Notes: a model not told the origin generated them from the letters alone. A stretch of DNA of 37,686 nt from Methylobacteriaceae bacterium (GCA_019244955.1 JAFASC010000222.1:1-37686), one strand, 5' to 3'; shown: positions 1-21,355, counted from the first letter of the stretch. Program-made: numbers and translations.

Positions 1-509
1 GGATCGCCGGTCTTACTCTCGGCGCGGGCGACAATCTCCTTGCGCTCGCTCAGTGCGCTGCGCGGCCGCGGTTTGGTCTCGCGGATCAGATCGAGCCCGT
101 GCTCGAGATCGAGGCGCAGATCTTGACCGGCGTCGCGCTTTTTCTCAAGCCCCGCATGCCAACTCGCGAAGGGATCGCGCCAAGCTTCGATCGTGTACAA
201 GTATCGCGCATTTGCTTCGAGCCGGAAAGAGCCGCTCCAGCGGTCGTTCTCGAGGAAACGCATGGGTGTGCGGCGCCACTCGGTTTCGCGTTCAACACGG
301 TACAAGAGATCGACACCGATTTTCTCGTGACCGTCGGAAAAGACCGTCGCCTGAACTTGAACCGTGTCGCCGACGATCCTTTTGATAGGCGTGTCGCCGC
401 AATCGATCATCGGGCTTACCGCTTCAATGGCGACGCGGCCCTCCGCAATCTGCGGCGATACACTTAATCCGCGCGCCCGCGAGGCGCGGGCATTCAATAC
501 TGGTGTCAT
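1..509 (-). CDS. glgE: Alpha-1,4-glucan:maltose-1-phosphate maltosyltransferase (GlgE), N-terminal part only, runs off window
   Basis: Reverse-strand translation from ATG 509-507: MTPVLNARASRARGLSVSPQIAEGRVAIEAVSPMIDCGDTPIKRIVGDTVQVQATVFSDGHEKIGVDLLYRVERETEWRRTPMRFLENDRWSGSF..., typical of the GlgE N-terminal domain; start overlaps the upstream stop (ATGA). Absent from ORF track because truncated. Confidence 0.85.
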   Translation of the reverse strand, partial: MTPVLNARASRARGLSVSPQIAEGRVAIEAVSPMIDCGDTPIKRIVGDTVQVQATVFSDGHEKIGVDLLYRVERETEWRRTPMRFLENDRWSGSFRLEANARYLYTIEAWRDPFASWHAGLEKKRDAGQDLRLDLEHGLDLIRETKPRPRSALSERKEIVARAESKTGD

Positions 510-5374: not shown

Positions 5375-7185
5375 GGAGCGGTTCTCCAGGAGATGCCGGT
5401 CCAGGGGCGCAGGTGAACGCGATTGTCTTGCGCCGAAGCATCCGGGCTTTGCCAGATGATGCGCGCGCCATGGGGCAAATCGACTTCGCCTGCGCGGTCC
5501 CCGAACGACGCTGCAAAAGCGAGCCCGCCTGCCTCAAAGCGCCACTCGACCGTCAGCACGGCATTGGTGACATTATAGCTGGCGTCAAAATAGCGGCTCG
5601 CAATCAACGGCACGATTTCGCGATGCCGGATCGCGATCAAATTGCGCAGCTCGCTGAGCACGCTTGCATGCGGCTCGCGGCTGATTTCGGTCCAATCGAT
5701 CTTGGAATGGACAAAGGTCCTCTCGTCGGTCGGGTCGGGGATGCGTGCAGCAGCAGCTTCGTCGGCGAACGCCTTGAAGTGGCGGAACTCCCGGCGGCGG
5801 CCCTCGCGCACCGCTTTCGACAATTCTTCGCTCTCGGAGAAATCGACGAAAAACTGGAACGGCGCGGACGCGCTCCATTCCTCGCCCATGAACAACATCG
5901 GGATTTGCGGACTGAGCATCAACCCCGCATGCGCCAGCGCCAGCTTCTCGGGCGTGGTTAAGGCCGCGATGCGCTCGCCAAAGGCACGATTGCCAATCTG
6001 GTCGTGGTTCTGCAAGTGCGCGACAAAAGCGCTCGGCGGCAGATGCGCGGAAGCCTCCCCGCGCGGTTTCCCGCCACGAATTTGCATCGGTTCGCCCTGG
6101 AAGACGAAGCCTTCAGCAAGGCCGCGTCCGAGCCGCCCGACCGGGTCGTCGACGTAATCGGCGTAATATCCCTCGCTCTCGCCCGTCATCAGCACGTGCC
6201 AACAATGGTGCACGTCATCGTTCCATTGCGCCGTGTAATGAATCGGCTGGCCGGCTTCGTCGCGCTGCAGCCATTTCGCTTCGTTCTCTTCGTTTTCGAG
6301 GATTAGGTGGATTTGCCGATCCGGCAATGTCTCGCGAATTGCGTCCGCAATCTCGATCAGGATGTGGTTGGCGCTGTCATCGGTAATCGCGTGGACCGCA
6401 TCAAAGCGCAAACCGTCCGCATTGAACTCTTCGAGCCAATAGAGCGCATTGTGCAGGAAGAAATCGCGCACGGTCCGCTCTTCATCGAAAGCAAGTCCGC
6501 CGCCCCAGGGCGTTTGGTGGCGCTCGGTGAAGAAGGATTTTGCAAAAGCGTGCAGATAATTGCCGCTCGGGCCGAAATGATTATAGACTACGTCGATGAA
6601 GATCATGATCCCGAGCGCGTGCGCGCGCTCGATGAGCCGCTTCAAGTCATCCGGGGTGCCGTAGGACGCATTCGGCGCGAAGTGTGCGACACCGTCATAG
6701 CCCCAATTGCGTGCGCCGGGACAGTCGGAAAGCGGCATCAGTTCGATCGCGGTGGCGCCGAGATCGCGCCAATGTTCGAGCTTTTCTGCAAGCGCCGCAA
6801 ACGTCCCCTGCGGAGTGGCGGTGCCGACATGCACCTCGACGATTACCGCTTCCGCCCAAGGGCGGCCGTGCCACTCGCCGTCGCTCCAGGCAAAGGCAAG
6901 CGGGTCGACAATTGCGCTCGGCTGATGCACCCCGTCCGGCTGATAGCGCGAGGCCGGATCGGGCGCACGCAAGCTTTCGTTCAGTTCATAAATGTAGCGC
7001 GTGCCGGCACTCACCCCGGTCAGTTCCAGCTCGTGCCATCCGTCCGGCTTCGCCGCCATGGGGTGCGGGGTGTCGGCTACAATCGCGCGCGGATTTTGTT
7101 CGTCCGGGGCGAAAAGCGCGAACCGGGTCTTATCTTGATCGATATGCGCGCCAAACGGCATGCGGTGCACGCGTCTCATTATCAT
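5371..7185 (-). CDS. treZ: Malto-oligosyltrehalose trehalohydrolase (TreZ)
   Basis: MPFGAHIDQDKTRFALFAPDEQ..., VEVHVGTATPQGTFAALAEKLEHWRDLGATAIELMPLSDCPGARNWGYDGV, VVYNHFGPSGNYLHAF, DGLRFDAVHAITDDS, PMLFMGEEWSASAPFQFFVDF; between glgX and treY. Confidence 0.93.
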   Translation of the reverse strand: MIMRRVHRMPFGAHIDQDKTRFALFAPDEQNPRAIVADTPHPMAAKPDGWHELELTGVSAGTRYIYELNESLRAPDPASRYQPDGVHQPSAIVDPLAFAWSDGEWHGRPWAEAVIVEVHVGTATPQGTFAALAEKLEHWRDLGATAIELMPLSDCPGARNWGYDGVAHFAPNASYGTPDDLKRLIERAHALGIMIFIDVVYNHFGPSGNYLHAFAKSFFTERHQTPWGGGLAFDEERTVRDFFLHNALYWLEEFNADGLRFDAVHAITDDSANHILIEIADAIRETLPDRQIHLILENEENEAKWLQRDEAGQPIHYTAQWNDDVHHCWHVLMTGESEGYYADYVDDPVGRLGRGLAEGFVFQGEPMQIRGGKPRGEASAHLPPSAFVAHLQNHDQIGNRAFGERIAALTTPEKLALAHAGLMLSPQIPMLFMGEEWSASAPFQFFVDFSESEELSKAVREGRRREFRHFKAFADEAAAARIPDPTDERTFVHSKIDWTEISREPHASVLSELRNLIAIRHREIVPLIASRYFDASYNVTNAVLTVEWRFEAGGLAFAASFGDRAGEVDLPHGARIIWQSPDASAQDNRVHLRPWTGISWRTAP

Positions 7186-7188
7186 TTG

Positions 7189-9291
7189 TTACGCCGGCGT
7201 AAGTTGGAAGAGCGCGAGCGAACGTGCGCCGATTGGAAATGTTCCCCCCGGACGCAGAACGGATACCGGCGTGCGCACATGTCCATGAGCCTCCTGCGTA
7301 TCGAACACATGTGTCCACGCGGCTCCCGGCAAATGCGGATTGAGCGTGAAATCGACCTTTTTGGTGGATGCGTTGAGGAGGACGATAAATCGCTGGCCGT
7401 CGGCCGAATCGTTGCCGATCTGCATGCCGAGCGTACGACGGTTCTCGTCCGCCCAGTCCTCGTTGGTCATTTCCCGGCCCTCGGGCGCGAGCCAATAGAC
7501 GTCCTGCAGGCCATTCTTGTCGACGCGGGAGCCGGTCAGATAACGGCGCCGGCGGAACACGTCATGACTGCGCCGAAGCCGGATGAGCAGCTGAATGAAG
7601 GAGAATAGATCGGGATCGACTTTCTCGCCGCGGTCCCAATCGAGCCAGCTCGTCTCGTTGTCCTGACAATAGGCATTGTTGTTGCCCTTCTGCGTGCGCG
7701 AGAATTCATCCCCCATGAGCAGCATCGGCACGCCGACAGAGAAGAACACCGTCGCCAGAAGGTTGCGCTTCTGCTGGGCACGCAAAACGAGAATGGCGGG
7801 GTCCCTGGTCGGCCCCTCGACCCCGCAATTCCAGGAGACGTTATGGGGATGTCCGTCTTTGTTGTCCTCGCGGTTCGGCTCGTTGTGACGCTCGTTGTAG
7901 CTGACGAGGTCCTGCAACGTGAAGCCGTCATGGGACGAGACATATTGGACCGAAGCCCAGGGCTGGCGCCCGCGCCTGTGAAAGATCTCGCGTGATCCAG
8001 TGAGGGCGCGCGCGAGACCGGCGATCTGTCCGGCATCGCCGCGCCAGAAACCGCGGATCGTGTCGCGAAAGCTATCGTTCCACTCGCTCCAGCCGGGCGG
8101 AAATTGTCCCAAGCGGTAGCCGTTGGAGCCGAGATCCCACGGCTCCGCGATCAATTTGACGCGCGACAAAACCGGATCCTGCCCAACTGCGCGCAGGAAG
8201 CCGGCCCGGTCGGAAAACTCGAATGGGTCGCGGGCGAGCGCCGGTGCAAGATCGAAACGGAAGCCGTCGACGTGATAAGCCTCAACCCAATGCCGCAGAC
8301 TGTCCGTCACCATCTGCAGGACGCGCGGATGCGCAAGGTCGAGCGTATTTCCGGTCCCGGTCACGTCCCAGACGAAACGCGGATTGTCCGGTGCAAGCTT
8401 GTAGTAGCTGCGATTGTCTATGCCGCGGAAGGAGAGCGTCGGGCCGAGCTGATTGCCTTCGGCGGTATGATTGTACACGACGTCGAGGATGACCTCGATC
8501 CTGGCTTCGTGGAGCGTGCGGACGGCGGCTTTGAGATCAAGCACGCCATCACCTTCGGAGCTGTAATAGCGCGGCTCCGGCGCGAAGAAAGCGAGAGTCG
8601 AATAACCCCAATAGTTCCTGAGCTTCTTCTCGACGAGAAAGCGATCGTCGGCGAAGGCATGGATCGGCATGAGTTCGATCGCGGTTACCCCGAGCTTGAC
8701 CAGATGATCGACGATCGCGGGATGGGCGAGCGCGGCATACGTGCCGCGCATCGTCATCGGCACGTCGGGATGCAGCTGCGTCAGGCCTTTGACGTGCGCC
8801 TCGTAAATCAGCGTGTCGCGCCACGCGTGACGCGGCGGCTGATCGCCACCCCACATATGCGAAGGGTCCTCGACCACGCATTTCGGCATCATCGGAGCAC
8901 TATCGCGGCTATCTCGGGTGAGGTCGGCGCGATGCGCATCCCGCCGATAGCCGTACAGCGCATCGTGCCAGCGAATGCGTCCGGAGAGCCGCCGCGCGTA
9001 AGGGTCGATGAGCAGCTTGCGCGGGTTGAAACGGTGGCCGTGCGCCGGTTCATAAGGTCCGTGCACGCGGTAGCCGTACAATTGTCCCGGGCGCAGTCCG
9101 TTCACATAGCCGTGCCAGACTTCGTCCGAATATTGCGGCAGTCTATATTCCTCGATCTGACGGCGTCCGGACGAGTCGAACAGGCAAAGGTCAACCGCGC
9201 TCGCATGGGCTGAAAACAGGGCGAAGTTCACGCCCTTGCCGTCCCAGGTCGCACCGAGCGGCGCAGGCGAGCCGTCGTCGAGGCGCGTCAT
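7189..9291 (-). CDS. glgX: Glycogen debranching enzyme (GlgX/TreX family)
   Basis: MTRLDDGSPAPLGATWDGKGVNFALFSAHASAVDLCLFD..., YWGYSTLAFFAPEPRY, VILDVVYNHTAEGNQLGPTLSFRGIDN, DGFRFDLAPALAR, LLMGDEFSRTQKGNNNAYCQDNETSWLDWD. ORF-track start at 9465 overlaps otsA; Met at 9291 is the more likely start. Confidence 0.93.
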   Translation of the reverse strand: MTRLDDGSPAPLGATWDGKGVNFALFSAHASAVDLCLFDSSGRRQIEEYRLPQYSDEVWHGYVNGLRPGQLYGYRVHGPYEPAHGHRFNPRKLLIDPYARRLSGRIRWHDALYGYRRDAHRADLTRDSRDSAPMMPKCVVEDPSHMWGGDQPPRHAWRDTLIYEAHVKGLTQLHPDVPMTMRGTYAALAHPAIVDHLVKLGVTAIELMPIHAFADDRFLVEKKLRNYWGYSTLAFFAPEPRYYSSEGDGVLDLKAAVRTLHEARIEVILDVVYNHTAEGNQLGPTLSFRGIDNRSYYKLAPDNPRFVWDVTGTGNTLDLAHPRVLQMVTDSLRHWVEAYHVDGFRFDLAPALARDPFEFSDRAGFLRAVGQDPVLSRVKLIAEPWDLGSNGYRLGQFPPGWSEWNDSFRDTIRGFWRGDAGQIAGLARALTGSREIFHRRGRQPWASVQYVSSHDGFTLQDLVSYNERHNEPNREDNKDGHPHNVSWNCGVEGPTRDPAILVLRAQQKRNLLATVFFSVGVPMLLMGDEFSRTQKGNNNAYCQDNETSWLDWDRGEKVDPDLFSFIQLLIRLRRSHDVFRRRRYLTGSRVDKNGLQDVYWLAPEGREMTNEDWADENRRTLGMQIGNDSADGQRFIVLLNASTKKVDFTLNPHLPGAAWTHVFDTQEAHGHVRTPVSVLRPGGTFPIGARSLALFQLTPA

Positions 9292-9323
9292 CCAAGCGGA
9301 TTCCGGGACTGCTGGCCGGCGGT

Positions 9324-10856
9324 TCAGCCGTCGAGTGTCGTCCAGAGCGGGGGCGCCGCGCGGCCATTCACCGGCTGCGGCTGATCCTCCAAGAGGATGT
9401 CGAGGAAGCTCTTCGACCAATCCTCGACGTTGTTGCTTTCCAAGACATCCATCATCGCACGCCACCGCTCTTTGCGCTCCTCGAGGGGCATGTTTAGGCC
9501 GCGAGCGATGGCAGTGGCAACGCCCTGCTTGTCATAAGGATTGACGATGAGCGCCGCGTCGAGCTCCTGGGCCGCGCCGGCGAAGCGGGAGAGGATGAGG
9601 ACGCCGGGGTCCTGCGGCGCTTGGGCCGCGACATATTCCTTTGCAACGAGATTCATGCCATCGCGAAGCGGCGTGACAAGTCCGATGCGCGCCATCCGGT
9701 AGAGACCGGCGAGCGCCGTGCGGCTCATCGTCCTGTTCATGTACTGAATCGGCGTCCAGTCGAGGTCGCCGAATTTGCCGTTCGTATTGCCGACCTGCTC
9801 GGCGACCTTACGCTGAATTTGCACGTAGGCCGGTACTTCAGAGCGCGACTTCGGCGTAATCTGCAAGAGCACGGTGCGCTTCTTCATATCGGGATGGCGT
9901 TCGAGGAACGCTCCGAAGGAGTTGATCCGCTCAAATATGCCTTTCGTATAGTCAAGCCGGTCGACGCCGATAATGAGGCTCTTGCCGTCGAGGCTGGCGC
10001 GGGTGCGCTTGACCACTGTGTTGTGCTCGGCCAGGCGCGCTTCCTCGGCAAAAGCGCCGGTGTCGATCGAGATCGGGAAGGCACCGACCCGGAAACGCCG
10101 CCCGAAAGCCTCGCACCAGCCGTCGCCGAGAGCGCGACCGGCGCCGCTTCTTTCGATACAGCCGACGAAATTCTGGGCATCGAGTTGGGTCTGGAACCCG
10201 ATCAGGTCATAGGCCGCGAAGGAGCGCAATAATTCCTCGTAGGCCGGCAAGCCGGAGGCGACGTCGTCCGGAGGCCACGGCACATGCAGGAAGAACCCGA
10301 GCCGGTTGGAAAAGCCCATGTCGCGGAGCGCGCGTGCGAGCGGAATGAGATGGTAATCGTGAACCCAGATCGCGTCGCCTTCGTCGAGCAGCTTGGCGAG
10401 CCGACGGGCGAAAGAACCATTGACCCGGAAAAAGCCGGCGGTGTGCTGCGCCGAATATTCGGCAAGATCCAGCCGGTAATGGCAGATCGGCCAAAGCGCC
10501 CGGTTGGCAAAGCCGTGATAGAATTCTTCGAGATCGCGGCGGCTTAGATCGGCGACCGCATAGCTGACCGCGCCGTAGGTGCGCAGCGATGTCGCTGATT
10601 CCGGCATATCGTTGGTCTTGCCGGACCAGCCGAACCACAGGCCGCCGCGGGCCTTCAAGGCTGCGTCCAATGCCACCGCAAGACCGCCGGCGGCAGGCGT
10701 TCCGCTGGCGCTCGGCACCGGTACTCGGTTCGAAACTACAACCAGACGGCCGGTTTTTGGCCCTGTCTTGGGCGCCATGATGGGCCGCGATGGCTGCAGA
10801 AAGTCGACCTGACCCATCTCTTGCGAAAGCCTCTGCAATGATTTCGAATCCGACAA
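9324..10856 (-). CDS. otsA: Alpha,alpha-trehalose-phosphate synthase (UDP-forming), GT20
   Basis: GRLVVVSNRVPVPS, GGLWFGWSGKTND, GFFLHVPWPPDD, GVDRLDYTKGIFERINSF, LVTPLRDGMNLVAKEYVAAQAPQDPGVLILSRFAGAAQEL. Start could be the internal Met at MAPKTG. Confidence 0.94.
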   Translation of the reverse strand: MSDSKSLQRLSQEMGQVDFLQPSRPIMAPKTGPKTGRLVVVSNRVPVPSASGTPAAGGLAVALDAALKARGGLWFGWSGKTNDMPESATSLRTYGAVSYAVADLSRRDLEEFYHGFANRALWPICHYRLDLAEYSAQHTAGFFRVNGSFARRLAKLLDEGDAIWVHDYHLIPLARALRDMGFSNRLGFFLHVPWPPDDVASGLPAYEELLRSFAAYDLIGFQTQLDAQNFVGCIERSGAGRALGDGWCEAFGRRFRVGAFPISIDTGAFAEEARLAEHNTVVKRTRASLDGKSLIIGVDRLDYTKGIFERINSFGAFLERHPDMKKRTVLLQITPKSRSEVPAYVQIQRKVAEQVGNTNGKFGDLDWTPIQYMNRTMSRTALAGLYRMARIGLVTPLRDGMNLVAKEYVAAQAPQDPGVLILSRFAGAAQELDAALIVNPYDKQGVATAIARGLNMPLEERKERWRAMMDVLESNNVEDWSKSFLDILLEDQPQPVNGRAAPPLWTTLDG

Positions 10857-11155
10857 CGCCGTCCCCCTCAGCTTCGTTGCGAAGCTCGGCGCCTATCTTT
10901 CGCCCGCCCATGCTAGGATTGAGCCGCGCGGGAAGGCTTCTGGTTGAACCCGACATACAAAATGCGCGCCATAACATTTGCTTAGCGCACGTTTTTCAAT
11001 CGACGTTGCTAGTCTGCCACTGCGGCACGGATTCCCGTGCGGTGTGTCCGCAGGTGGGTCGGTTTCACTGGCATCAACAGGGCATTTGAGTTAAGGGTCC
11101 GGAACTATTCGACAGTGCGCCTGCCCGATCAAACTGCAACCGGAATTCTCTCTGC

Positions 11156-12385
11156 GTGGCCCGACACAACAGCCTCAGCGATTACGCTTCGAAGCGGTTC
11201 CGACTAGCGGGGAAAGCCGTCCTCGACTTCGGAAATCCGTTTTTCGCCCCCATAGATCGCCTGGGACAGGATGCGGAACGCCGCGGCAAGCCATTCGTCA
11301 GCTTCGCAAATTACGACTATCTCGGCCTGGCGACGCATCCGCGCGTGAAAGCCGACAGCGCTGCAGCACTCGAGTCGCTCGGCGTCGGCGCCCTCGCCTC
11401 AAGGCTCGTCGGGGGTGAGCGCTCGACACACCAGCTCCTGGAGGAGGAGCTCGCATCCTTTCTCGGCACCGAGACCTCCCTCTCGCTCGTCTCCGGCTAT
11501 CTCACCAACCTGACCACGATCACCCATCTGATGGCCGGCCGCGATGCGCTGTTCATCGACGAACTGTCGCACAACAGCATTGTCAGCGCGGCAAAGAGTT
11601 CGGGCGCCGCGGTCGTCGTCTTCCGCCACAACGACCTCGACCATCTTGACGAGCTCCTCGCCAACAATCGCGAGAATTACCGCAACGTACTGATCATCGC
11701 CGAAGCCCTGTACAGCATGGACGGCGACATCGCCGACTTGCCGCGCCTCGTCGAGGTCAAGGAGCGGCACCAGGCGTGGCTGCTCGTCGACGAAGCGCAT
11801 TCACTGGGCGTGCTCGGCGCGACCGGCAGGGGCATTTGCGAGCATGCCGGCGTCGACCCCAATCGCGTCGATCTCATTATTGGCACCATGTCCAAGACGC
11901 TCGCCTCCTGCGGCGGCTTCATCGCTGCAAAGCGCAGCATCACCGACTGGATGCGCTACACGCTACCGGGTTTCGTCTATAGCGTCGGCTTGTCACCGGT
12001 GATCGTTGCCGCCGCCCGCGCGGCGTTGCAACTCATGCAGGAGGAGGCCTGGCGCATCGAGCGGTTGGCAAGGAACGCCGAGATGTTCCGCGACTGCGCC
12101 CGCCAGGCGGGGCTCGACACCGGCCCCGCCATCGGCCGCGGCGTGGTACCGATCCTGTTCGCATCGAGCCAGGAGACGATGCTCGCCTCGCAGCACCTCC
12201 TCGAGCAAGGCTTCTATTGCCCGCCGATCGTCCAGATCGGCGTTCCCAAGGACCAGCCGCGGCTCAGGTTCTTCATCTCGGCAAGCCATACCGAGGACGA
12301 CATTCGGCGGGTGATTGCCGCGCTCGAAACGCGGCCGGTCGTCGCCGGCGAGATGCCTGCCCAAGTCGCCACCGCGGCGTTGTAA
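11156..12385 (+). CDS. PLP-dependent alpha-oxoamine synthase; serine palmitoyltransferase-like
   Basis: FANYDYLGLATHPRVKADSAAALESLGVGALASRLVGGERSTHQLLEEELASFLG, LLVDEAHSLGVLGATGRGICEHAGVD, PLP-lysine motif GTMSKTLASCGGFIA. Family certain; SPT rather than AONS/KBL is inferred from the downstream genes. Confidence 0.85.
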   Translation: MARHNSLSDYASKRFRLAGKAVLDFGNPFFAPIDRLGQDAERRGKPFVSFANYDYLGLATHPRVKADSAAALESLGVGALASRLVGGERSTHQLLEEELASFLGTETSLSLVSGYLTNLTTITHLMAGRDALFIDELSHNSIVSAAKSSGAAVVVFRHNDLDHLDELLANNRENYRNVLIIAEALYSMDGDIADLPRLVEVKERHQAWLLVDEAHSLGVLGATGRGICEHAGVDPNRVDLIIGTMSKTLASCGGFIAAKRSITDWMRYTLPGFVYSVGLSPVIVAAARAALQLMQEEAWRIERLARNAEMFRDCARQAGLDTGPAIGRGVVPILFASSQETMLASQHLLEQGFYCPPIVQIGVPKDQPRLRFFISASHTEDDIRRVIAALETRPVVAGEMPAQVATAAL

Positions 12386-12454
12386 GCGGTACCGCCTGGT
12401 ATCTGTTCGATTGTCCGCCTTTTTAGGGTCATGGATCGCTGCTAGGGCGCGGCC

Positions 12455-13666
12455 ATGTCGGCAATCGATGTCGTGCCTGTCTCGGGCCTTGCCTCTTTTC
12501 TGGCGTTCTGCCGGATGCCGCGCACCCTTTATTCAGGCCATCCCGGCTTTGCGCCTTCTCTCGATGCGGAGCGCTGGACCCTTTACGCGCATTGGCTGAA
12601 CCCGCATTTCAAGCAGGTGACGTCGCAGGCTTGGCTTGCCCGCCGCGGTGGGCGCGCCGTCGGGCGCATCGCCGCGCAGATCTATCGGCCGGAGATCACC
12701 CCGCTCGGCGCCTCGCGCGCCCAGTTCGGCTCGCTCGACGCCGTGGACGACCGCGATGTTGTAGCCGCTCTGACCGCCACGGCGGAGGCATGGCTGCGCG
12801 AGCGCGGCGCGGCAATCATCCATGGGCCCTTCTCGCCGTCGGTGAACAGCGAGACCGGCCTTCTGGTGCAAGGCTTCGATGCCGTACCCATGATGTTCAT
12901 GCCCTGGCATCCGCCCTATCTCGGGCCTCTTCTCGAGGCCTGCGGCTACGGCAAAGCCCGAGACCTGATCTCCTACCGCTACCGGCCGACAAAGGCGGAT
13001 GCCCGCGATTCCGGCGTGACGGCCAGGCCCGAATGGCGAGACCGCCTGAAGATTCGGCCGCTGAGGCTCAAGGACATTCGCAGCGAGGCGGCGGTTATTA
13101 CCGGGATTTTCAACGACGCCTGGGGCCATAATTGGGGCTATGTGCCGCTCACCGTCGACGAACTCGTGTCCACGGCCGACGCGCTCAAATTCGTCATGCC
13201 GGAAGATTTCGGCTTCGTCTTCGAGCTGGATGGCGAGCCGGCCGCCTTCGGAATCGGGATTCCAAATCTCCACGAGATGACGGCCGACCTGAAGGGTCGG
13301 TTGTTCCCGTTTGGCCTGCGGCTTATCGGACGCGTCCGCAATGCCCGCTTCAAGACCGCTCGGATCGCCTTGTTTGGGGTGCGAAAGAAGTTCCAGCGTA
13401 GCGCGACGGGCGGCGTCATCATTCTCGGCCTGGTCGACCGGATGCGGCAATTGTACCGCACCTATAACCTGGAACAGATAGAATTCGGCTGGGTTTTGGA
13501 GGACAATGCCCAGATGCGCCGGCCGATAGAGCTTGGGGGAGCGCAGGTGGACAAAGTCCACCGCGTGTACGAGAAGCAGCTTGTCGCTCGCGCCGTAAGC
13601 GCAAACGAGCCGGCGGCGACGACGGCGGGCGCAAACAGCGAAGCACTGGCGCGGGGATTGGTTTAA
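12455..13666 (+). CDS. GNAT-superfamily (YghO-like) acyltransferase; candidate bacterial ceramide synthase
   Basis: 403 aa; IHGPFSPSVNSETGLLVQGFDAVPMMFMPWHPPYL and FNDAWGHNWGYVPLT...FVFELDGEPAAFGIGIPNLHEMTADLKGRLFPFG resemble YghO-type GNAT proteins. Stop overlaps the next start (TAATG). Specific function inferred from context. Confidence 0.65.
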   Translation: MSAIDVVPVSGLASFLAFCRMPRTLYSGHPGFAPSLDAERWTLYAHWLNPHFKQVTSQAWLARRGGRAVGRIAAQIYRPEITPLGASRAQFGSLDAVDDRDVVAALTATAEAWLRERGAAIIHGPFSPSVNSETGLLVQGFDAVPMMFMPWHPPYLGPLLEACGYGKARDLISYRYRPTKADARDSGVTARPEWRDRLKIRPLRLKDIRSEAAVITGIFNDAWGHNWGYVPLTVDELVSTADALKFVMPEDFGFVFELDGEPAAFGIGIPNLHEMTADLKGRLFPFGLRLIGRVRNARFKTARIALFGVRKKFQRSATGGVIILGLVDRMRQLYRTYNLEQIEFGWVLEDNAQMRRPIELGGAQVDKVHRVYEKQLVARAVSANEPAATTAGANSEALARGLV

Positions 13667-14700
13667 TGAATCGTCCGATGGACATATCGGAAGCAACGTT
13701 GGCGGACCGCTCGCATATCGAGCGGCGCCGGGAAATCCTCAAAGCGCATCCCGAGATCCGCACCCTGATCGGGCGCGATCGCACGACCGCCTGGATCACG
13801 ATCTGCGTCGTCGCCGGCCAGCTGTGTCTTGCCGCGGTGTTCGGCGGCTTGGGGCTGCACTGTTGGTGGCTTGCCCTGATCGCTGCCTATTGCGTTGGCG
13901 CTTTCGCCAACCACGCGATGTTCGTCGTCATTCACGACGCGATCCACAATCTCGTCTTCGAGGACGGGCGCCTCAATAAGCTCACCGCGATTCTCGCCGA
14001 TCTCCCAAACGCATTTCCCACCTCGATGGGCTTTCGCGCCTATCACATCAAACACCACTCGCATCTGAGTTCCTACGACTACGATGCCGACGTTCCGAGC
14101 GATTGGGAGGCGCGCCTCGTCGGCAATCGCTGGTATATGAAGGCCGGATGGCTGTTCTTCTTCGCGGCTTTTCAATGGCTGCGCATCAGCCGGCTCAAGG
14201 GCACCGTGCCCGGCATTTTCAGCCGCTGGTCGATGATCAATATCGGCGCGGTAATCGTCTGCGATCTCATCCTCCTGTTCTTGTTCGGCCCTAATGCGCT
14301 GCTCTACCTGTTGGCGTCCTTCTGGTTCTCGGTCGGGCTGCATCCGCTCGGCGCGCGCTGGATCCAGGAGCATTATGCTCTCGCGCCGGGACAAGGAACG
14401 TTCGACTATTACGGGCCTCTGAACCGCATTCAGCTCAACATCGGCTATCACAACGAGCACCACGATTTTCCCGATATACCCTGGAGCCGGCTGCCTGAAC
14501 TGAAGGCCATGGCGCCGGAATATTATGACGGGCTGCACGCGCACTATTCCTGGACCCGACTGTTCTTCGCCTTCATCTTCGATCCGCGCTATTCGCTGCA
14601 CACGCGCACGGAGAACATGCCTGAACGGCCCGAGCGGCAAGACGTGATGGCGGAAAACTCGCATGCGACCTTCAAGCCGGCTCTCGCGGCGCAGAGGTGA
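13666..14700 (+). CDS. Membrane fatty acid desaturase, sphingolipid delta-4 desaturase (DES1/DEGS)-like
   Basis: Three His boxes HDAIH, HIKHH, HNEHH; DES1-type C-terminal stretch TFDYYGPLNRIQLNIGYHNEHHDFPDIPWSRLPELKAMAPEYYDGLHAHYSWTRLFFAFIFD and YDADVPSDWEA. Confidence 0.85.
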   Translation: MNRPMDISEATLADRSHIERRREILKAHPEIRTLIGRDRTTAWITICVVAGQLCLAAVFGGLGLHCWWLALIAAYCVGAFANHAMFVVIHDAIHNLVFEDGRLNKLTAILADLPNAFPTSMGFRAYHIKHHSHLSSYDYDADVPSDWEARLVGNRWYMKAGWLFFFAAFQWLRISRLKGTVPGIFSRWSMINIGAVIVCDLILLFLFGPNALLYLLASFWFSVGLHPLGARWIQEHYALAPGQGTFDYYGPLNRIQLNIGYHNEHHDFPDIPWSRLPELKAMAPEYYDGLHAHYSWTRLFFAFIFDPRYSLHTRTENMPERPERQDVMAENSHATFKPALAAQR

Positions 14701-14705
14701 TCTGA

Positions 14706-15362
14706 ATGACGACGAGATCAGAATCTGACGGTGCGGCCCTTGGCGATTATCTGACCGCCTCGCCCCGGTTATTCGAGAATCCGCTTCTCGACAAACTCTC
14801 GCGCGTGCACTGGACCGTGCCGCTTTACGCTTATGCGCCGGCTATCGCGGTGCTCGCTTATCTAAGTTTCACAAACGTAAGTGCCCTGGCGGCGGTCGGC
14901 TGCATGCTGCTCGGTTATATCGGCTGGACGCTGATCGAGTATTTCGGCCACCGCTATCTCTTCCATTGGGAATTTCCGGGTCAATTCGGCAAGCGTCTGC
15001 ACTTCCTCATTCACGGCGTGCATCACCATCATCCGAGCGATCCGCTGCGGCTCGTCATGCCGGTCCTGCTCAGCGGCCCGATCCTGCTTGCCGCGTTTGC
15101 GGTGATCGCGGTCTTATTCGGGTTCCCGCTGACCTGGCCGGTGCTTGCCGGCTTCACCGCCGGATACCTCGCCTACGACATGGTTCACTACCACGTGCAC
15201 CACCGAGAGCCGACGACCCGCTTCGGACGTATGCTCCGGCGCGTGCACATGCTCCATCACTTCCGCGATCACGATCGCGGCTTTGGGGTGAGCGCGCCGT
15301 GGTGGGATTACGTGTTCGGGACGTCCTACGCGAGCGAGAGTGCGAGGGGCGAGCGCCGCTAA
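14706..15362 (+). CDS. Fatty acid hydroxylase superfamily protein, ceramide fatty acid 2-hydroxylase (FA2H/Scs7)-like, no cytochrome b5 domain
   Basis: EYFGHRYLFHWEFPG...LHFLIHGVHHHHPSDPLRLVMP...YLAYDMVHYHVHH...RRVHMLHHFRDHDRGFGVSAPWWDYVFGT: His-rich pattern of FA2H/Scs7. Confidence 0.82.
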   Translation: MTTRSESDGAALGDYLTASPRLFENPLLDKLSRVHWTVPLYAYAPAIAVLAYLSFTNVSALAAVGCMLLGYIGWTLIEYFGHRYLFHWEFPGQFGKRLHFLIHGVHHHHPSDPLRLVMPVLLSGPILLAAFAVIAVLFGFPLTWPVLAGFTAGYLAYDMVHYHVHHREPTTRFGRMLRRVHMLHHFRDHDRGFGVSAPWWDYVFGTSYASESARGERR

Positions 15363-15517
15363 AGAACCTGTGCCCTGCAATAGTTAATTGCACGAAACCG
15401 GTTGTAAATAGCCGCGGCGCGGTTATTGATTGCAACCTTCGTTCCCCATCCCTAGTTGCCACTTATTGATTCGGGAGTGCGGCTCCACCCATCTCTCGAT
15501 GCATTCTCGGTGTTCGT

Positions 15518-16687
15518 ATGACCAGTCGTTGGCACGTACTCGGATTGCTTTTCCTCGTTCGCACGACAATGGCATTTCAATTCGAATCGGTTGCCGCCAT
15601 CGGACCGGTCCTCCAGCGCGAATTCAACGTCGGCCTTCCTGATATAGGGATGCTGATCGGCCTGTACCTGTTGCCGGGCGTGGTGATCGCTCTGCCCGGG
15701 GGCGCAATCGGGCGCGCGCTTGGAGACAAGCGCACCGTATTGGTCGGCTGCGCGATCATGTTCGTCGGCAACGTCATCATGGCTTTCTCCGACGTTTGGG
15801 CTGCCCAGGTCGGCGGCCGCTTGCTAACCGGCATCGGCGGCGTCGTGCTGAATGTCGTCAGCACGAAGATGGTGGCGGATTGGTTCGCGGAGCGCGAAAT
15901 CGCAACCGCGATGGCGCTGTTTCTCAATTCCTGGCCGTTCGGCATCGCCGTTGCCCTCTTGGCGCTGCCGTCGTTGGGCGTTGCCGAGGGCTACAAGGCC
16001 GTATTCTTCCTCGCCGCCGACCTCGTCGGAGCCGCCGCCCTCCTCTTGGCCTTCGTTTACAAAGACAGGGTCGTCGAAAGCTTTCCAAAAGAGGGCCCGC
16101 GGATGGAGCGACAGACCATCCTGCTTGTGACGCTCGCCGGTCTCATATGGGGCTTGTTCAATACCGCGATTGCGATGGTTTTCTCCTTCGGGATCAACGT
16201 CCTCATCGAGCAGGGTTGGGCGATTACAAGCAGCGGCTCGGTGATCAGTCTTGTTCTATGGCTGACCATTTTTACGGTGCCGCTCGGCGGGTACACGGCC
16301 GATCGGGTCAGGAGCAAGGGCGTTCTGATCGCGGCGAGCACGGTCGTCGCGGCGCTGCTGATGTTTGCAGTGCCGCGCACGGGCTATCCGCTGGCCGTGC
16401 TGATCGCATTCGGGCTGATCTGCGGTTTTCCCGCCGGTGCGATGATGGCGCTCCCGGCTTCGGTGCTGAAACCACAGAACCGCGCCGGCGGAATGGGGAT
16501 TTTCTTCACCGTGTTTTACCTCGCGATGTCACTCGGACCGGTGATTGCCGGCCGGCTTGCCGGCTATACCGGGCGCGCTGCGACCGCGCTTGACTTCGGC
16601 GCTGGCCTTCTCGTCGCCTGCCCGATCGTCCTCGCTGGCTTTATGGTTTTGCGCGAAGGCGCGCTCGCCAACGAAATTGCCGTGTAG
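15518..16687 (+). CDS. MFS transporter (CynX/NimT-like)
   Basis: 389 aa with about 12 hydrophobic segments; FLVRTTMAFQFESVAAIGPVLQREFNVGLPDIGMLIGLYLLPGVVIALPGGAIGRALGDKRTVLVGC. Confidence 0.8.
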   Translation: MTSRWHVLGLLFLVRTTMAFQFESVAAIGPVLQREFNVGLPDIGMLIGLYLLPGVVIALPGGAIGRALGDKRTVLVGCAIMFVGNVIMAFSDVWAAQVGGRLLTGIGGVVLNVVSTKMVADWFAEREIATAMALFLNSWPFGIAVALLALPSLGVAEGYKAVFFLAADLVGAAALLLAFVYKDRVVESFPKEGPRMERQTILLVTLAGLIWGLFNTAIAMVFSFGINVLIEQGWAITSSGSVISLVLWLTIFTVPLGGYTADRVRSKGVLIAASTVVAALLMFAVPRTGYPLAVLIAFGLICGFPAGAMMALPASVLKPQNRAGGMGIFFTVFYLAMSLGPVIAGRLAGYTGRAATALDFGAGLLVACPIVLAGFMVLREGALANEIAV

Positions 16688-16704
16688 GCGCTGTGCGGCC
16701 CCCT

Positions 16705-17778
16705 TCACATCGCGTCGTAATCGAGCGCGATTTTCTCCGTCGCAGGGCGGAACTGGCACGTCAGGACAAAACCTGCCTCTTCTTCCCATGGCTCGAGCGA
16801 AAAATTCTGGTCCATGGCGCCGGCGCCTTCCATCAGCTTGGCGCGGCAGGTGCAGCACATGCCGCCACGGCACGAATAGGGCAGATCGAGTTCGTGGCGC
16901 TCGGCGGCTTCGAGCACCGTCTCGTCCTTGCGCATCGCCAATTTATGCAGCGCGCCGTCGAGGCGGATTGTAAGGCTGATCTCCTCGCGCGCATGCGACA
17001 CAAGGGTCGACTTGAGCGGCCGCGGCGGCGTCTCGGTCGTGAAAACTTCGCGATGGATGCGGGCGCTCGGTAGGCCGAGCGCAGTAAGGGTTGCGCTCAC
17101 CTCCTCGATCATCGTCAGCGGGCCGCAGAGGAATACGTCATCGACGGCAGCGATGCCGCCTGCGGTGCGGATCAAGGCCGGCACTTTGTCGCCGGTGAGC
17201 CGCCCGTGCAGCAGATCGACGTCCTGCATTTCACGCGACAGAATGTGGTGCACCGAGAGGCGCTCGAGAAAGCGGTCTTTGAGCGCGTCGAGCCCATCCT
17301 TGAACATGATCGTCGCCGACGATTTGTTGCCATAGAACAAAACGAAATGGCTCTGCGGTTCGCGCGTCAGCACGGTCTTGATGATCGAGAAGATCGGCGT
17401 GATGCCCGACCCGGCGGCGAAGCCGACATAGGTGCGCTCTGCCGTCGCATCCGGTGCAAGGCCGAAACGCCCCTCCGGTCGCATGACTTCGATCGTGTCG
17501 CCAGCCCTCAGGCGCGCATTGGCAAAAGATGAAAACAGACCGCCATCGAGCCGCTTTATCGCGACGCGCAGTTCGCCTTCGTCCATTCCGGAGCAGATCG
17601 AGTAGGAACGCCGCACTTCCGCGCCGTCGAGCTTGGTGCGGAGCGTCAGATATTGTCCGCTGGTGAAGGCGAACTCCTCGCGCATCTCTTCCGGGACGGC
17701 GAAGCCGATCGAGATCGCCTCCGGCGTCTCGCGGCGCACGTCGGCAATGGTGAGAGGATGGAACCCTTGCGACGTCAT
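16705..17778 (-). CDS. paaE: 1,2-phenylacetyl-CoA epoxidase reductase subunit PaaE
   Basis: MTSQGFHPLTIADVRRETPEAISIGFAVPEE..., RRSYSICS, GFAAGSGITPIFSIIKTVLTREP, C-terminal 2Fe-2S ferredoxin motif LPYSCRGGMCCTCRAKLMEG. ORF-track start at 17895 overlaps paaD; Met 17778 preferred. Confidence 0.94.
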   Translation of the reverse strand: MTSQGFHPLTIADVRRETPEAISIGFAVPEEMREEFAFTSGQYLTLRTKLDGAEVRRSYSICSGMDEGELRVAIKRLDGGLFSSFANARLRAGDTIEVMRPEGRFGLAPDATAERTYVGFAAGSGITPIFSIIKTVLTREPQSHFVLFYGNKSSATIMFKDGLDALKDRFLERLSVHHILSREMQDVDLLHGRLTGDKVPALIRTAGGIAAVDDVFLCGPLTMIEEVSATLTALGLPSARIHREVFTTETPPRPLKSTLVSHAREEISLTIRLDGALHKLAMRKDETVLEAAERHELDLPYSCRGGMCCTCRAKLMEGAGAMDQNFSLEPWEEEAGFVLTCQFRPATEKIALDYDAM

Positions 17779-17783
17779 CCCGC

Positions 17784-18305
17784 TCAGATGCACTTGAAAT
17801 AATCGAAAGGCTCGCGGCAGGCTTTGCAGCGCCACAAGGCCTTGCAGGCTGTTGAGCCGAACTCTGACACCCTTTCCGTGTTGGACGAGCCACAATGCGG
17901 GCAGACGATGCTCTCTTCACCGAATAAAGCGCGGCGCGATGCATGTCCTGCCGGCGGCGCGATGCCGTAAGCCTTGAGTTTGGCTTTGCCGGTCTCGCTC
18001 ATCCAATCGGTCGTCCACGCCGGCGAGAGAACCTGGCGAACGTGCGCATTGCAGAAGCCGGCTTTAGCGAGCGCCATTTTGATGTCGAAGCCGATCACAT
18101 CGATTGCCGGGCAGCCGGAATAGGTCGGAGTGATCGCCACTTTCACTGTCCCGTCCGTGGCGACGTCGATCGAACGCAGCACGCCGAGATCGGCGATCGT
18201 GAGAACCGGGATTTCCGGATCGCGGACTTGTGCGACTGCTTCGCGCGCACGCGCGACGAGCTCATCTTGATGGCACTCGAGTTCCGTGAGCGCGGACATC
18301 ACCAC
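17784..18305 (-). CDS. paaD: 1,2-phenylacetyl-CoA epoxidase subunit PaaD
   Basis: VRDPEIPVLTIADLGVLRSIDV...ITPTYSGCPAIDVI...LSPAWTTDWMSETGKAKLKAYGIAPP...CPHCGSSNTERVSEFGSTACKALWRCKACREPFDYFKCI. Confidence 0.94.
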   Translation of the reverse strand: MVMSALTELECHQDELVARAREAVAQVRDPEIPVLTIADLGVLRSIDVATDGTVKVAITPTYSGCPAIDVIGFDIKMALAKAGFCNAHVRQVLSPAWTTDWMSETGKAKLKAYGIAPPAGHASRRALFGEESIVCPHCGSSNTERVSEFGSTACKALWRCKACREPFDYFKCI

Positions 18306-19078
18306 ACCGCCTCGGGATGGGTCCGTTGCAGGTACTGCAGATCGGCGAGGATATAACCGACATGCTCGCTGTGGCGGCCGCTGCGCCCGCCGCTTTGCAT
18401 GAAGGGCGCCTGCGGGATTTCCAGCCTCGCCTCGCGTAGAATCGGTGCGAGGCGCTGATTCCAGGAGCCTTCAAGGCTGAGCACGTCTGGGGCGACGCCC
18501 GACTGGGCAAGACCGCGCTCGATGTCATCCGCCTCGAACAACTCGCCCGTGTAGACCCAGAGCTCATCCAGGGCCGTCTGCGCGCGCTCGTGACTGTCGT
18601 CTGTGCCGTCGCCGAGCCGGATCAGCCATTCCCCGGAATGGCGCAGATGGTAAGCGGTTTCCTTCTCGGCCTTGCCGGCCATGGCGGCCAGCGCCTTGTC
18701 GCGCGACGTCATCATCTCGCGCCAATACAAATCCATGAACGCCGAGAACAGAACCTGCCGCACGATCGTGGCGGCGAAATCGCCGTTCGGCTGCTCGACG
18801 AGAAGGCAATTGCGATATTGATGCTGCTCGCGCCGGTAAGCGAAATGATCTTCGGTGAGCCCGGAGCCTTCGACGAGCGCGGCGTAACCGTAGAGCGAGC
18901 GCGCTTGGCCGACGAGATCGAGCGCGATATTGGCGAGCGCGATATCTTCTTCCACCATGGGCGCGTGGCCGCACCATTCCGACAGCCGATGGCCGAGGAT
19001 CAGCGCGTCGTCGGCGCGCCGCAGCACGAGATTTAAGAGCGAGCTCTCGGCAAAGGAGATTGAGGTCGTCGCCATCAC
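18299..19078 (-). CDS. paaC: 1,2-phenylacetyl-CoA epoxidase subunit PaaC
   Basis: LRRADDALILGHRLSEWCGHAPMVEEDIALANIALDLVGQARSLYGYAA...FRYRREQ-like (FAYRREQHQYRNCLLVEQPNGDFAATIVRQ); PaaC family; between paaB and paaD. Confidence 0.93.
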   Translation of the reverse strand: MMATTSISFAESSLLNLVLRRADDALILGHRLSEWCGHAPMVEEDIALANIALDLVGQARSLYGYAALVEGSGLTEDHFAYRREQHQYRNCLLVEQPNGDFAATIVRQVLFSAFMDLYWREMMTSRDKALAAMAGKAEKETAYHLRHSGEWLIRLGDGTDDSHERAQTALDELWVYTGELFEADDIERGLAQSGVAPDVLSLEGSWNQRLAPILREARLEIPQAPFMQSGGRSGRHSEHVGYILADLQYLQRTHPEAVW

Positions 19079-19362
19079 ATATGTCCGACCTCGTCCGGCA
19101 CATCATAGAATGTCGGGTGGCGATAAATCTTCGACAAAGCCGGTTCGAACAGTTCATCCTTATCCGCCGGGTCGGAGGCGACGATCGCGCTGGATGGCAC
19201 GACCCAGATCGAATTGCCCTCGCCGCGGCGCGTATAGACGTCGCGCGCCGCCTGCAGCGCCATCTCCGCATCGGCTGCATGCAGCGAGCCGCAATGCTTG
19301 TGCGCGAGGCCGGAGCGCGAGCGGATGAACACTTCCCAAAGGGGCAGATGCTTCTCGCTCAT
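19075..19362 (-). CDS. paaB: 1,2-phenylacetyl-CoA epoxidase subunit PaaB
   Basis: PLWEVFIRSRSGLAHKHCGSLHAADAEMALQAARDVYTRRGEGNSIWVVPSSAI. Confidence 0.94.
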   Translation of the reverse strand: MSEKHLPLWEVFIRSRSGLAHKHCGSLHAADAEMALQAARDVYTRRGEGNSIWVVPSSAIVASDPADKDELFEPALSKIYRHPTFYDVPDEVGHM

Positions 19363-19365
19363 CGC

Positions 19366-20361
19366 CTACTCCGCTGCGATCTGCATGGCCTCGCGCCGTG
19401 CGCGGCGCTTCTGCGCATAGGCCAGCGCCGCCTCACGCACCCAGGCGCCGTCCTCGTGGGCTTTGCGGCGCGCCCGCATGCGCTCGCGATTGCACGGGCC
19501 ACCGCCGGCGAGCACGCGCTTGAACTCGGCCCAGTCGATCGGGCCGATTTTCCAGTGGCCGCTCGCGTCGTCATAGGCGAGCTCCTTATCGGGAATAGTC
19601 AGCCCGAGATAATGCGCCTGCGGAACGGTCGCATCGATAAACTTCTGGCGGAGATCGTCGTTCGAGAAGCGCTTGATTTTCCAGCGCGTCGACTGGTCGG
19701 AATGCTGGCTCTCGCTGTCGGGCGGCCCGAACATCATCAAGCACGGCCACCACCAGCGATTCAAGGCATCCTGCGCCATCGCTTTCTGCTCTGGCGTGCC
19801 GCGCGCGAGAGTCAGCATGATCTCGTAGCCTTGGCGCTGGTGAAAACTCTCTTCCTTGCAGATGCGGATCATCGCGCGCGCATACGGGCCATATGAGCAG
19901 CGGCAGAGCGGGATCTGGTTCATGATCGCGGCGCCGTCGACGAGCCAGCCGATCGCGCCGATATCGGCCCAGGTCAGCGTCGGATAATTGAAGATCGAGG
20001 AATATTTGGCCTTGCCCGCTAAGAGCTGCCCGATCAGCTCTTCGCGCGAGACATCGAGCGTCTCAGCGGCGGCATAAAGATAGAGCCCGTGGCCGGCCTC
20101 GTCCTGCACCTTGGCGAGCAGTGCCACCTTGCGCTTCAGCGACGGGGCGCGCGTGATCCAGTTGCCTTCAGGCAGCATGCCGACGATCTCGGAATGGGCG
20201 TGCTGCGAAATTTGCCGGACGAGCGTGCGCCGGTAGGCATCCGGCATCCAATCGTTCGGCTCGATTTTCTGCTCGGCATCGACACGCGCCTGGAAGCGAG
20301 CGGCCTCGCTGGACTGGTCGGTCGCCTCGTCGGGAATGCCGTTCAGCGCCTGCGTATACAT
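19366..20361 (-). CDS. paaA: 1,2-phenylacetyl-CoA epoxidase subunit PaaA
   Basis: MYTQALNG...; [133 protein letters not shown]. Internal Met at 20361 preferred over ORF-track start 20448. Confidence 0.95.
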
Positions 20362-20388
20362 GGCGGCTCCGCTAACACCGAGTATTGT

Positions 20389-20425
20389 GTCACAAAAAAT
20401 CCAAACGTCAAATATTTTCTGTGAC
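20389..20425. promoter_or_regulatory. Candidate PaaX operator upstream of paaA: imperfect inverted repeat GTCACAAAAAAT-N13-ATTTTCTGTGAC
   Basis: Arms 20389-20400 and 20414-20425 match at 11/12 positions; AT-rich, between the paaX stop (20429) and paaA start (20361). Confidence 0.5.
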
Positions 20426-20428
20426 GTA

Positions 20429-21355
20429 TCACCCGGCCTGGGGGGCAAAGCGCTGGCTCATCGGCTGGGCCGGCGCGGGCAGCGGCCCGCGATGGTCGCA
20501 GGTGTGGGCGCCGAGCCAACGATCGGCCGGATCGGCAACGATGGCATAGATCGCCGCGCATAGGTTGCGGGCCTTGCGGCCGGGCCAATCCTCGGGAAGG
20601 AGCGGGTTCGGCAGGAGCGGGTCGCGCAGGACGATGCGGCGATATTCGTGGATCAACAGGACGCGGATGACGACGCAGTCGAGGTCGTTCGGGCCGACGT
20701 GGCCGCGCAGCGCCGCGCCGGTTGGGACGAACATCGCGTTGAACTGCAAATAGCGGGTGGCGAGCTCGTCGAGCGGCCATGCGCGTTGCGCCAGGGCTCG
20801 CGCCGTGGCGGGGTGTGTCGCACTGGCACTCAAGTGCAGTGCATTTTTCGGCCGATGGCCGGCAATTCCGATCACCAAGTCTGGCGTGAGCGCCGCATAG
20901 CCGTGGCTTTGCCAGTGCGCCCGCGCATCTGCCCGTTCGGTCGCACTTCCCTCAAGCAGCACCAGATCGAAGCCGCCGTGCCAGTACTCCGGCGAGCCGC
21001 CGTAGATTTTGCCGGCGGCGTCCGCGAACGCCTCCTCGGCTGAAGCCGAGAGCGCATAGAACGTGTTCCGGCCGATCTTCTTGCGCTCGAACAGGCCCTC
21101 GGCGACGAGGCGCGACATGGCCGTGCGCACCAGCGTCTCGCTGACCCGGAATGCCCGCATGATCTCAAGCAGGGAGGCAAGTGCCAGCTGCCCGCCGCGC
21201 GGCACTATGGCATCGCCGAACAGCGTCACGATGAGGGAGCCGGCACGGATCGGAACGCGCGCGTGGAAGCGGTCGAGGAGGTCGGCGACGAAACCGCTCA
21301 TCGGACCGGCGCTGGTAATTGTTCCATCCTCCCCGCTAGACTGATGCCCGGGCAC
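20429..21355 (-). CDS. paaX: PaaX-family transcriptional repressor of phenylacetate degradation (start may be 21301)
   Basis: [64 protein letters not shown]...; upstream of paaA on the same strand. Confidence 0.88.

Follow-up and report, generated by a model that had tools for sequence, protein, structure and literature searches.

A conserved bacterial operon that probably directs synthesis of a ceramide-type lipid with eukaryote-type tailoring enzymes

A 37,686-nucleotide stretch of DNA from a Methylobacteriaceae bacterium (GCA_019244955.1 JAFASC010000222.1:1-37686; hereafter the window) carries four consecutive plus-strand genes, designated A to D, that probably form an operon for a ceramide-type membrane lipid, with a non-canonical first enzyme resembling serine palmitoyltransferase (SPT) and tailoring enzymes of eukaryotic type. 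Gene A (11156-12385; GTG start, 409 amino acids (aa), PF00155) encodes an alpha-oxoamine synthase (AOS), gene B (12455-13666; 403 aa) a putative N-acyltransferase with a predicted tandem GNAT fold, gene C (13666-14700; 344 aa, PF00487 and PF08557) a DES-type membrane desaturase, and gene D (14706-15362; 218 aa, PF04116) the catalytic domain of an FA2H/Scs7-type hydroxylase. The observations behind this reading are the gene families themselves, their conservation and linkage, and the joint occurrence of SPT and the B family in genomes. The open reading frames (ORFs) match exactly the coordinates given in a preliminary description of this DNA, which had also called the gene spacing tight. That term is valid for B-C-D only: the sequence shows a TAATG overlap at the B/C junction, and the stop codon of C (14698-14700) is followed after 5 bp by the start of D (14706), while a gap of 69 bp separates A from B.

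The preliminary description dealt with one organism, but the cluster proved to be a family-wide operon: A-B-C is kept in about 50 Methylocystaceae and Beijerinckiaceae genomes, with D present mainly in Methylocystaceae. When genomes were searched with C, the top matches were in Methylocystis, Methylosinus, Methylocapsa, Methylocella, Methylovirgula, Beijerinckia, and a Rhodoblastus metagenome-assembled genome, and the operon is found in cultured species. Across the window and 55 loci from these relatives (termed here the methanotroph group, a label that does not extend to the window's own organism), the number of loci with each gene was 56 for C, 53 for B, 52 for A, and 35 for D; apart from a few loci the order is A-B-C(-D), and no further gene was conserved to a similar degree. 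In Methylocystaceae the gene after C is D, whereas most Beijerinckiaceae lack D at the locus, implying that the unit is A-B-C and that D is an optional step; the locus of Methylocapsa palsarum consists of A-B-C with no D. C is uncommon across the class as a whole, occurring in only 1 of 190 sampled alphaproteobacterial genomes, that of the window itself. The plus-strand genes are taken to be the real ones because of their Pfam matches, an order kept in tens of genomes, and ratios of nonsynonymous to synonymous substitution (dN/dS) of 0.08-0.13 relative to the copies at locus L001 (82-89% identical), indicating purifying selection; the long ORFs that overlap them in antisense are the usual shadows of high-GC DNA. 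A scan for promoters and terminators gave a signal no greater than in shuffled sequences.

Gene B links the operon to known sphingolipid loci. By sequence, B had no match in Pfam, NCBIfam, or the PDB, the last searched with both single sequences and profiles. The top Foldseek matches to its AlphaFold model (pLDDT 85) were tandem GNATs (2wpw and 7q3a), including mycothiol synthase, and B is 33-39% identical over its full length to acyltransferases of canonical alphaproteobacterial SPT loci. A profile of methanotroph-group B proteins detected homologues in 11 of 19 such loci (122-367 bits), two of the 11 being truncated where the retrieved sequence ended. The loci with a B homologue also hold an acyl carrier protein (ACP), an AMP-binding (acyl-CoA) synthetase, a CerR-type NAD epimerase, LptF/LptG, and a diacylglycerol kinase, and the gene content of the canonical loci agrees with the published set of Caulobacter-type ceramide genes, consisting of Spt, bCerS, CerR, ACP, and acyl-CoA synthetase (ACS) (PMC11087976, PMC9386255). 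Among the 190 alphaproteobacterial genomes, canonical SPT (E<=1e-100) was detected in 24, the B family (E<=1e-30) in 25, and both in 23, with a Fisher p of 2.9e-26 that is only nominal because the genomes are related; the profile used includes members from SPT loci, and the result therefore measures the family, not B alone. The two B-family genomes outside the SPT list were the window's own and one designated G035, and in each an AOS adjoins B. B thus combines full-length homology to SPT-locus acyltransferases, a GNAT fold, and linkage to an AOS. The earlier identification of B as a GNAT acyltransferase is borne out by a predicted structure and by a family that accompanies SPT in alphaproteobacteria, and B belongs, as a putative member, to the SPT-linked (bacterial ceramide synthase-type) N-acyltransferases.

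The two tailoring genes could likewise be placed in the families first proposed for them. C matched PF00487 together with the DES-specific N-terminal domain PF08557 (Lipid_DES; 34.3 bits, cut-off 23), and its histidine boxes (HxxxH, HxxHH, and HNEHH) are invariant. Alignment with human DES1, using a provisional reference sequence, was colinear, with 34.6% identity over 318 aa (E 4e-63), and included the segment YYGPLN...GYHNEHHDFP. Models for carotenoid and fatty-acid enzymes scored far below their cut-offs on C, and the assignment to the DES family as opposed to ordinary fatty-acid or carotenoid desaturases held. A sequence search of the PDB with single sequences and profiles gave no relatives of C, and Foldseek returned only two chains of FtsHi motor complexes, which were uninformative. 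The closest relatives beyond Alphaproteobacteria are from Bacteroidota and Verrucomicrobiota (50-55%), and the verrucomicrobial homologue also has PF08557 and PF00487 with the three histidine boxes. C is accordingly predicted, from its sequence, to be a member of the sphingolipid delta-4-desaturase family. D matched PF04116 (63.4 bits, cut-off 31), and its only significant relative of solved structure was yeast Scs7 (4zr1; 4e-29, residues 18-209). Ten histidines are invariant (H82, H87, H103, H106, H107, H161, H165, H181, H184, and H185), and D comprises a full Scs7/FA2H catalytic domain, while in a Pfam search of its 218 aa PF04116 was the only domain found, with no cytochrome b5 domain. Many canonical SPT loci also have an FA_hydroxylase beside the B homologue, but of a divergent subgroup (19-23% identical).

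The best PDB match of A was the SPT of Sphingobacterium (4e-63), and A has the catalytic residues D212, H215, K247, and R371 common to known AOS, with K247 as the pyridoxal phosphate (PLP) lysine. In the best AOS trees, A and the methanotroph-group A proteins formed a clade of their own (support 100/97-100/99), apart from BioF (98/90), KBL, HemA, and SPT (98/98); a firm grouping with BioF or KBL, named in the preliminary description as contrary to its reading, was not recovered. In the PLP pocket, S82-R83 forms a Ser-Arg pair as in SPT, where HemA has Thr and KBL has Val, but this pair does not decide the substrate because some BioF also have it. Active-site columns (Ser82-Arg83 and GTxSK) were considered as a means of separating SPT from other AOS and were not used as proof, since alphaproteobacterial BioF has them too. 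The AOS complement of the window's own genome consists of A and HemA only, leaving no candidate first enzyme besides A.

Related gene combinations were found in other genomes. In Verrucomicrobia, L067 (8953-15857) and L079 (7914-16333) each combine a C homologue with genes for an AOS, an FA2H-like D, a GFO/IDH/MocA oxidoreductase, and a class III aminotransferase, and in a third locus, L060, the neighbors of C include an AOS and a B-type gene. A Bacteroidetes-type SPT-like protein (490-500 bits versus a cut-off of 640) is encoded in three Bacteroidota genomes that have C. Of the 20 genomes with C that were examined, every one has an AOS belonging to the SPT, A, A-sister, or verrucomicrobial type. 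In G035, which has no canonical alphaproteobacterial SPT match, an SPT-like AOS, an FA_hydroxylase, and a B-type acyltransferase form one compact cluster (L207, G035:C88, 2913-6260). Another genome, G022, encodes an A-clade AOS 52% identical to A within a cluster (L215, G022:C2:487000-504500; 7997-17501) that also contains DUF4833, myo-inositol-1-phosphate synthase, a short-chain dehydrogenase/reductase (SDR), CTP_transf_1, two LptF/LptG, a GT4 glycosyltransferase, and an FGGY kinase. The best PDB match of the SDR was the TSC10 3-ketodihydrosphingosine reductase (1.9e-27). By its gene content, this cluster resembles the LptFG-bearing canonical clusters and appears to serve the synthesis and export of an inositol-sphingolipid; a B-type acyltransferase was not found in the G022 genome. 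In the sister clade of A, the AOS is directly followed by a B-type gene in L216, L222, and L223, and ORFs of 2,300-2,500 aa resembling type I polyketide synthases (PKS), so named from their appearance without a domain search, adjoin the AOS in L216 (7241-9771), L217 (7767-16499), and L221 (7816-16592). It is possible that these last three loci specify polyketide-derived sphingoid-like lipids in Alphaproteobacteria.

With regard to the immediate surroundings of the operon in the window, a downstream major facilitator superfamily gene (15518-16687) was considered as a fifth member and excluded because it is shared only with L001. Upstream lies a minus-strand glycogen/trehalose cluster (506-10856) encoding a 1622-aa ORF with MalQ (4-alpha-glucanotransferase) and alpha-amylase-type domains, an alpha-amylase-family protein, a GlgX-like debranching-type protein, and a GT20 trehalose-phosphate synthase. 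Just downstream of A-B-C-D, also on the minus strand (16705-21355), are phenylacetate degradation genes for a PaaE-like reductase, PaaD, PaaC/PaaA-type proteins, and PaaX.

In the pathway that we infer, where substrates, order of steps, regiochemistry, and head group are matters of interpretation, A would produce a 3-keto sphingoid base by condensation of an amino acid, most probably L-serine, and a long-chain acyl thioester, B would N-acylate this base, and a reductase encoded elsewhere would reduce the 3-ketone. C would then introduce a 4,5 double bond into the sphingoid base, and D would hydroxylate C2 of the N-acyl chain. In most Beijerinckiaceae, whose operon has no D, the product would be without the 2-hydroxyl group. 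The more specific proposal that type II methanotrophs and their relatives, an environmentally important family, make eukaryote-like delta-4-unsaturated, 2-hydroxylated ceramides by means of a single operon, begun by an AOS lineage distinct from the SPTs with which genomes have so far been surveyed for bacterial sphingolipid producers, is plausible, but we would place it somewhat short of an even chance.

Several observations weigh against the ceramide pathway and its details. A scored below the curated cut-offs of three NCBIfam SPT models (297.7 against 500 bits for NF047599, 281 against 640 for NF047600, and 207.3 against 670 for NF047603), while the canonical SPTs of L104 and L108, used as controls on NF047599, reached 634 and 627 bits. 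Approximately unbiased (AU) tests on the deep position of A rejected neither a grouping with SPT (p 0.156) nor one with BioF (p 0.159) or KBL (p 0.079), and the SPT label for A is for this reason a proposal about function. The earlier assignment of A to SPT therefore stands in part: in the best trees A is separate from BioF, KBL, and HemA, but it fails the three cut-offs and in those trees falls outside the canonical SPT clade. A is probably a putative non-canonical SPT-like condensing enzyme, and it is the weak link of the pathway. The delta-4 position proposed for C and the C2 position proposed for D are those expected from family membership. Of the partners that the preliminary description had called for, a 3-keto reductase was not found in the window's own genome and an ACP is not among the genes conserved at the locus. 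The best match to a CerR-like reductase in the window's own genome was 31% identical, on contig C323 among housekeeping-type ORFs, and was rejected as CerR given its unrelated context and its fit to no HpnA/CerR-type model. A TSC10-like SDR, sought with the G022 protein as query, gave no match at 1e-20 in this genome and five relatives, in a search run without a positive control, and within the locus neighborhoods neither an ACP nor an acyl-CoA synthetase regularly accompanies A-B-C(-D). The lack of a reductase in the operon is not fatal, because the 3-ketosphinganine reductase gene of Bacteroides is also unlinked to SPT (PMC9278070). A published lipidome of a related species, Methylosinus trichosporium OB3b, names no ceramide (PMC9239053); the subject of that study was lipid change under phosphate limitation, and presence of the operon in the strain was not verified. 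Finally, the PKS-like neighbors of the sister-clade AOS mean that the product may be a long-chain amino-ketone of a kind other than a sphingoid base.

The alternative that survives best, although we regard it as rather unlikely, is that the same architecture uses another amino acid, such as glycine, alanine, or cysteate, in which case the product would be a 1-deoxy-ceramide, a sulfonolipid, or another N-acyl amino-lipid. The position of A outside the canonical SPT clade in the best trees and below the SPT cut-offs fits this alternative, cysteate C-acyltransferase and other AOS are likewise homologous to A, and we count in its favor that 1-deoxyceramides are common among bacterial lipids of the Black Sea (PMC11334938, PMC12619533). 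It is opposed by the Ser-Arg pocket of A, with the reservation about BioF given above, and by the B family, which otherwise tracks SPT. Less likely again is a ceramide operon in which C is a sphingoid C4-hydroxylase, a dual enzyme like DEGS2, or a desaturase or hydroxylase acting at another position, giving phytoceramide-type lipids. Sequence does not separate these outcomes, and DES1-type desaturation is the commoner activity of the DES family. Hydroxylase and desaturase activities do interchange within that family, and DEGS2 is reported to be bifunctional (PMC10140171).

The possibility that the cluster makes a secreted or specialized amino-ketone natural product, akin to those of the PKS-linked AOS, and not a membrane sphingolipid, is kept alive by the PKS-like ORFs beside the sister-clade AOS, but we consider it very improbable: no PKS is conserved beside A-B-C-D, the operon is retained family-wide with few losses, unlike most specialized clusters, and C and D belong to lipid-tailoring families of membrane enzymes. 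That A is simply the BioF of this organism, lying by chance near lipid genes, is largely refuted, since its top-scoring hidden Markov model, bioF (TIGR00858, 358.7 bits), remains under the cut-off of 426.45 and is also matched at 314-344 bits by genuine SPTs, BioF branches separately in the best trees, a BioF distinct from A occurs in Methylocystis, Methylosinus, Methylocapsa, Methylocella, and Beijerinckia, and BioB was not found in the window's own genome. Neither bioF nor bioB scored over its cut-off in this genome (91% complete), possibly reflecting biotin auxotrophy or loss of the genes from the incomplete assembly.

If the operon does direct ceramide synthesis, the result would bear on how producers are recognized. 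Surveys of bacterial sphingolipids seek canonical Spt, bCerS, and CerR, and a Black Sea survey counted AOS outside its Spt-like clade as not sphingolipid-related (PMC11334938); such rules may miss or under-call this operon, and producers that include major methane sinks may therefore go unrecognized. Should C and D have the activities expected of their families, ceramides of the sphingosine type and 2-hydroxylated ceramides in soils and wetlands would be unreliable markers of eukaryotes, and the bacterial homologues, which are small, would make convenient models of human DEGS1 and FA2H. In the open-access literature, we found no paper on the sphingolipids of Methylocystis or Beijerinckiaceae and no report of a bacterial DES/FA2H operon.

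Compared with the Caulobacter-type pathway, the operon shares the pairing of an AOS with a GNAT-type N-acyltransferase, B being homologous to the acyltransferase of canonical alphaproteobacterial SPT loci, but differs in that A is of another AOS clade, CerR, ACP, and ACS are not linked, and a DES-type desaturase is present. N-acyl hydroxylation in Caulobacter has been assigned to the DesA-family protein CC_0202 (PMC11324152), so the Scs7-type D would be a different solution. The rhodobacterial SPT system, with its dedicated ACP and acyl-CoA synthetase (PMC9386255), likewise contrasts with A-B-C(-D), beside which neither is conserved. C resembles eukaryotic DES1/DEGS1 in its N-terminal PF08557 domain, three histidine boxes, and colinear alignment, and differs in its identity of 34.6% to the provisional human sequence and its location in a bacterial operon with lipid-backbone genes. 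D has the whole catalytic domain and ten histidines of Scs7/FA2H, whereas the animal and fungal enzymes carry a fused N-terminal cytochrome b5 that this short protein does not have. The same pair of tailoring families underlies the fungal-type route of 2-hydroxylation followed by delta-4 desaturation (PMC8366399), although the operon has no delta-8 desaturase, C9-methyltransferase, or glucosylceramide synthase and its acyltransferase is of bacterial type. Bacterial ceramide synthesis is already known; what is new is that one conserved operon unites a non-canonical AOS and tailoring enzymes of the DES and Scs7 types.

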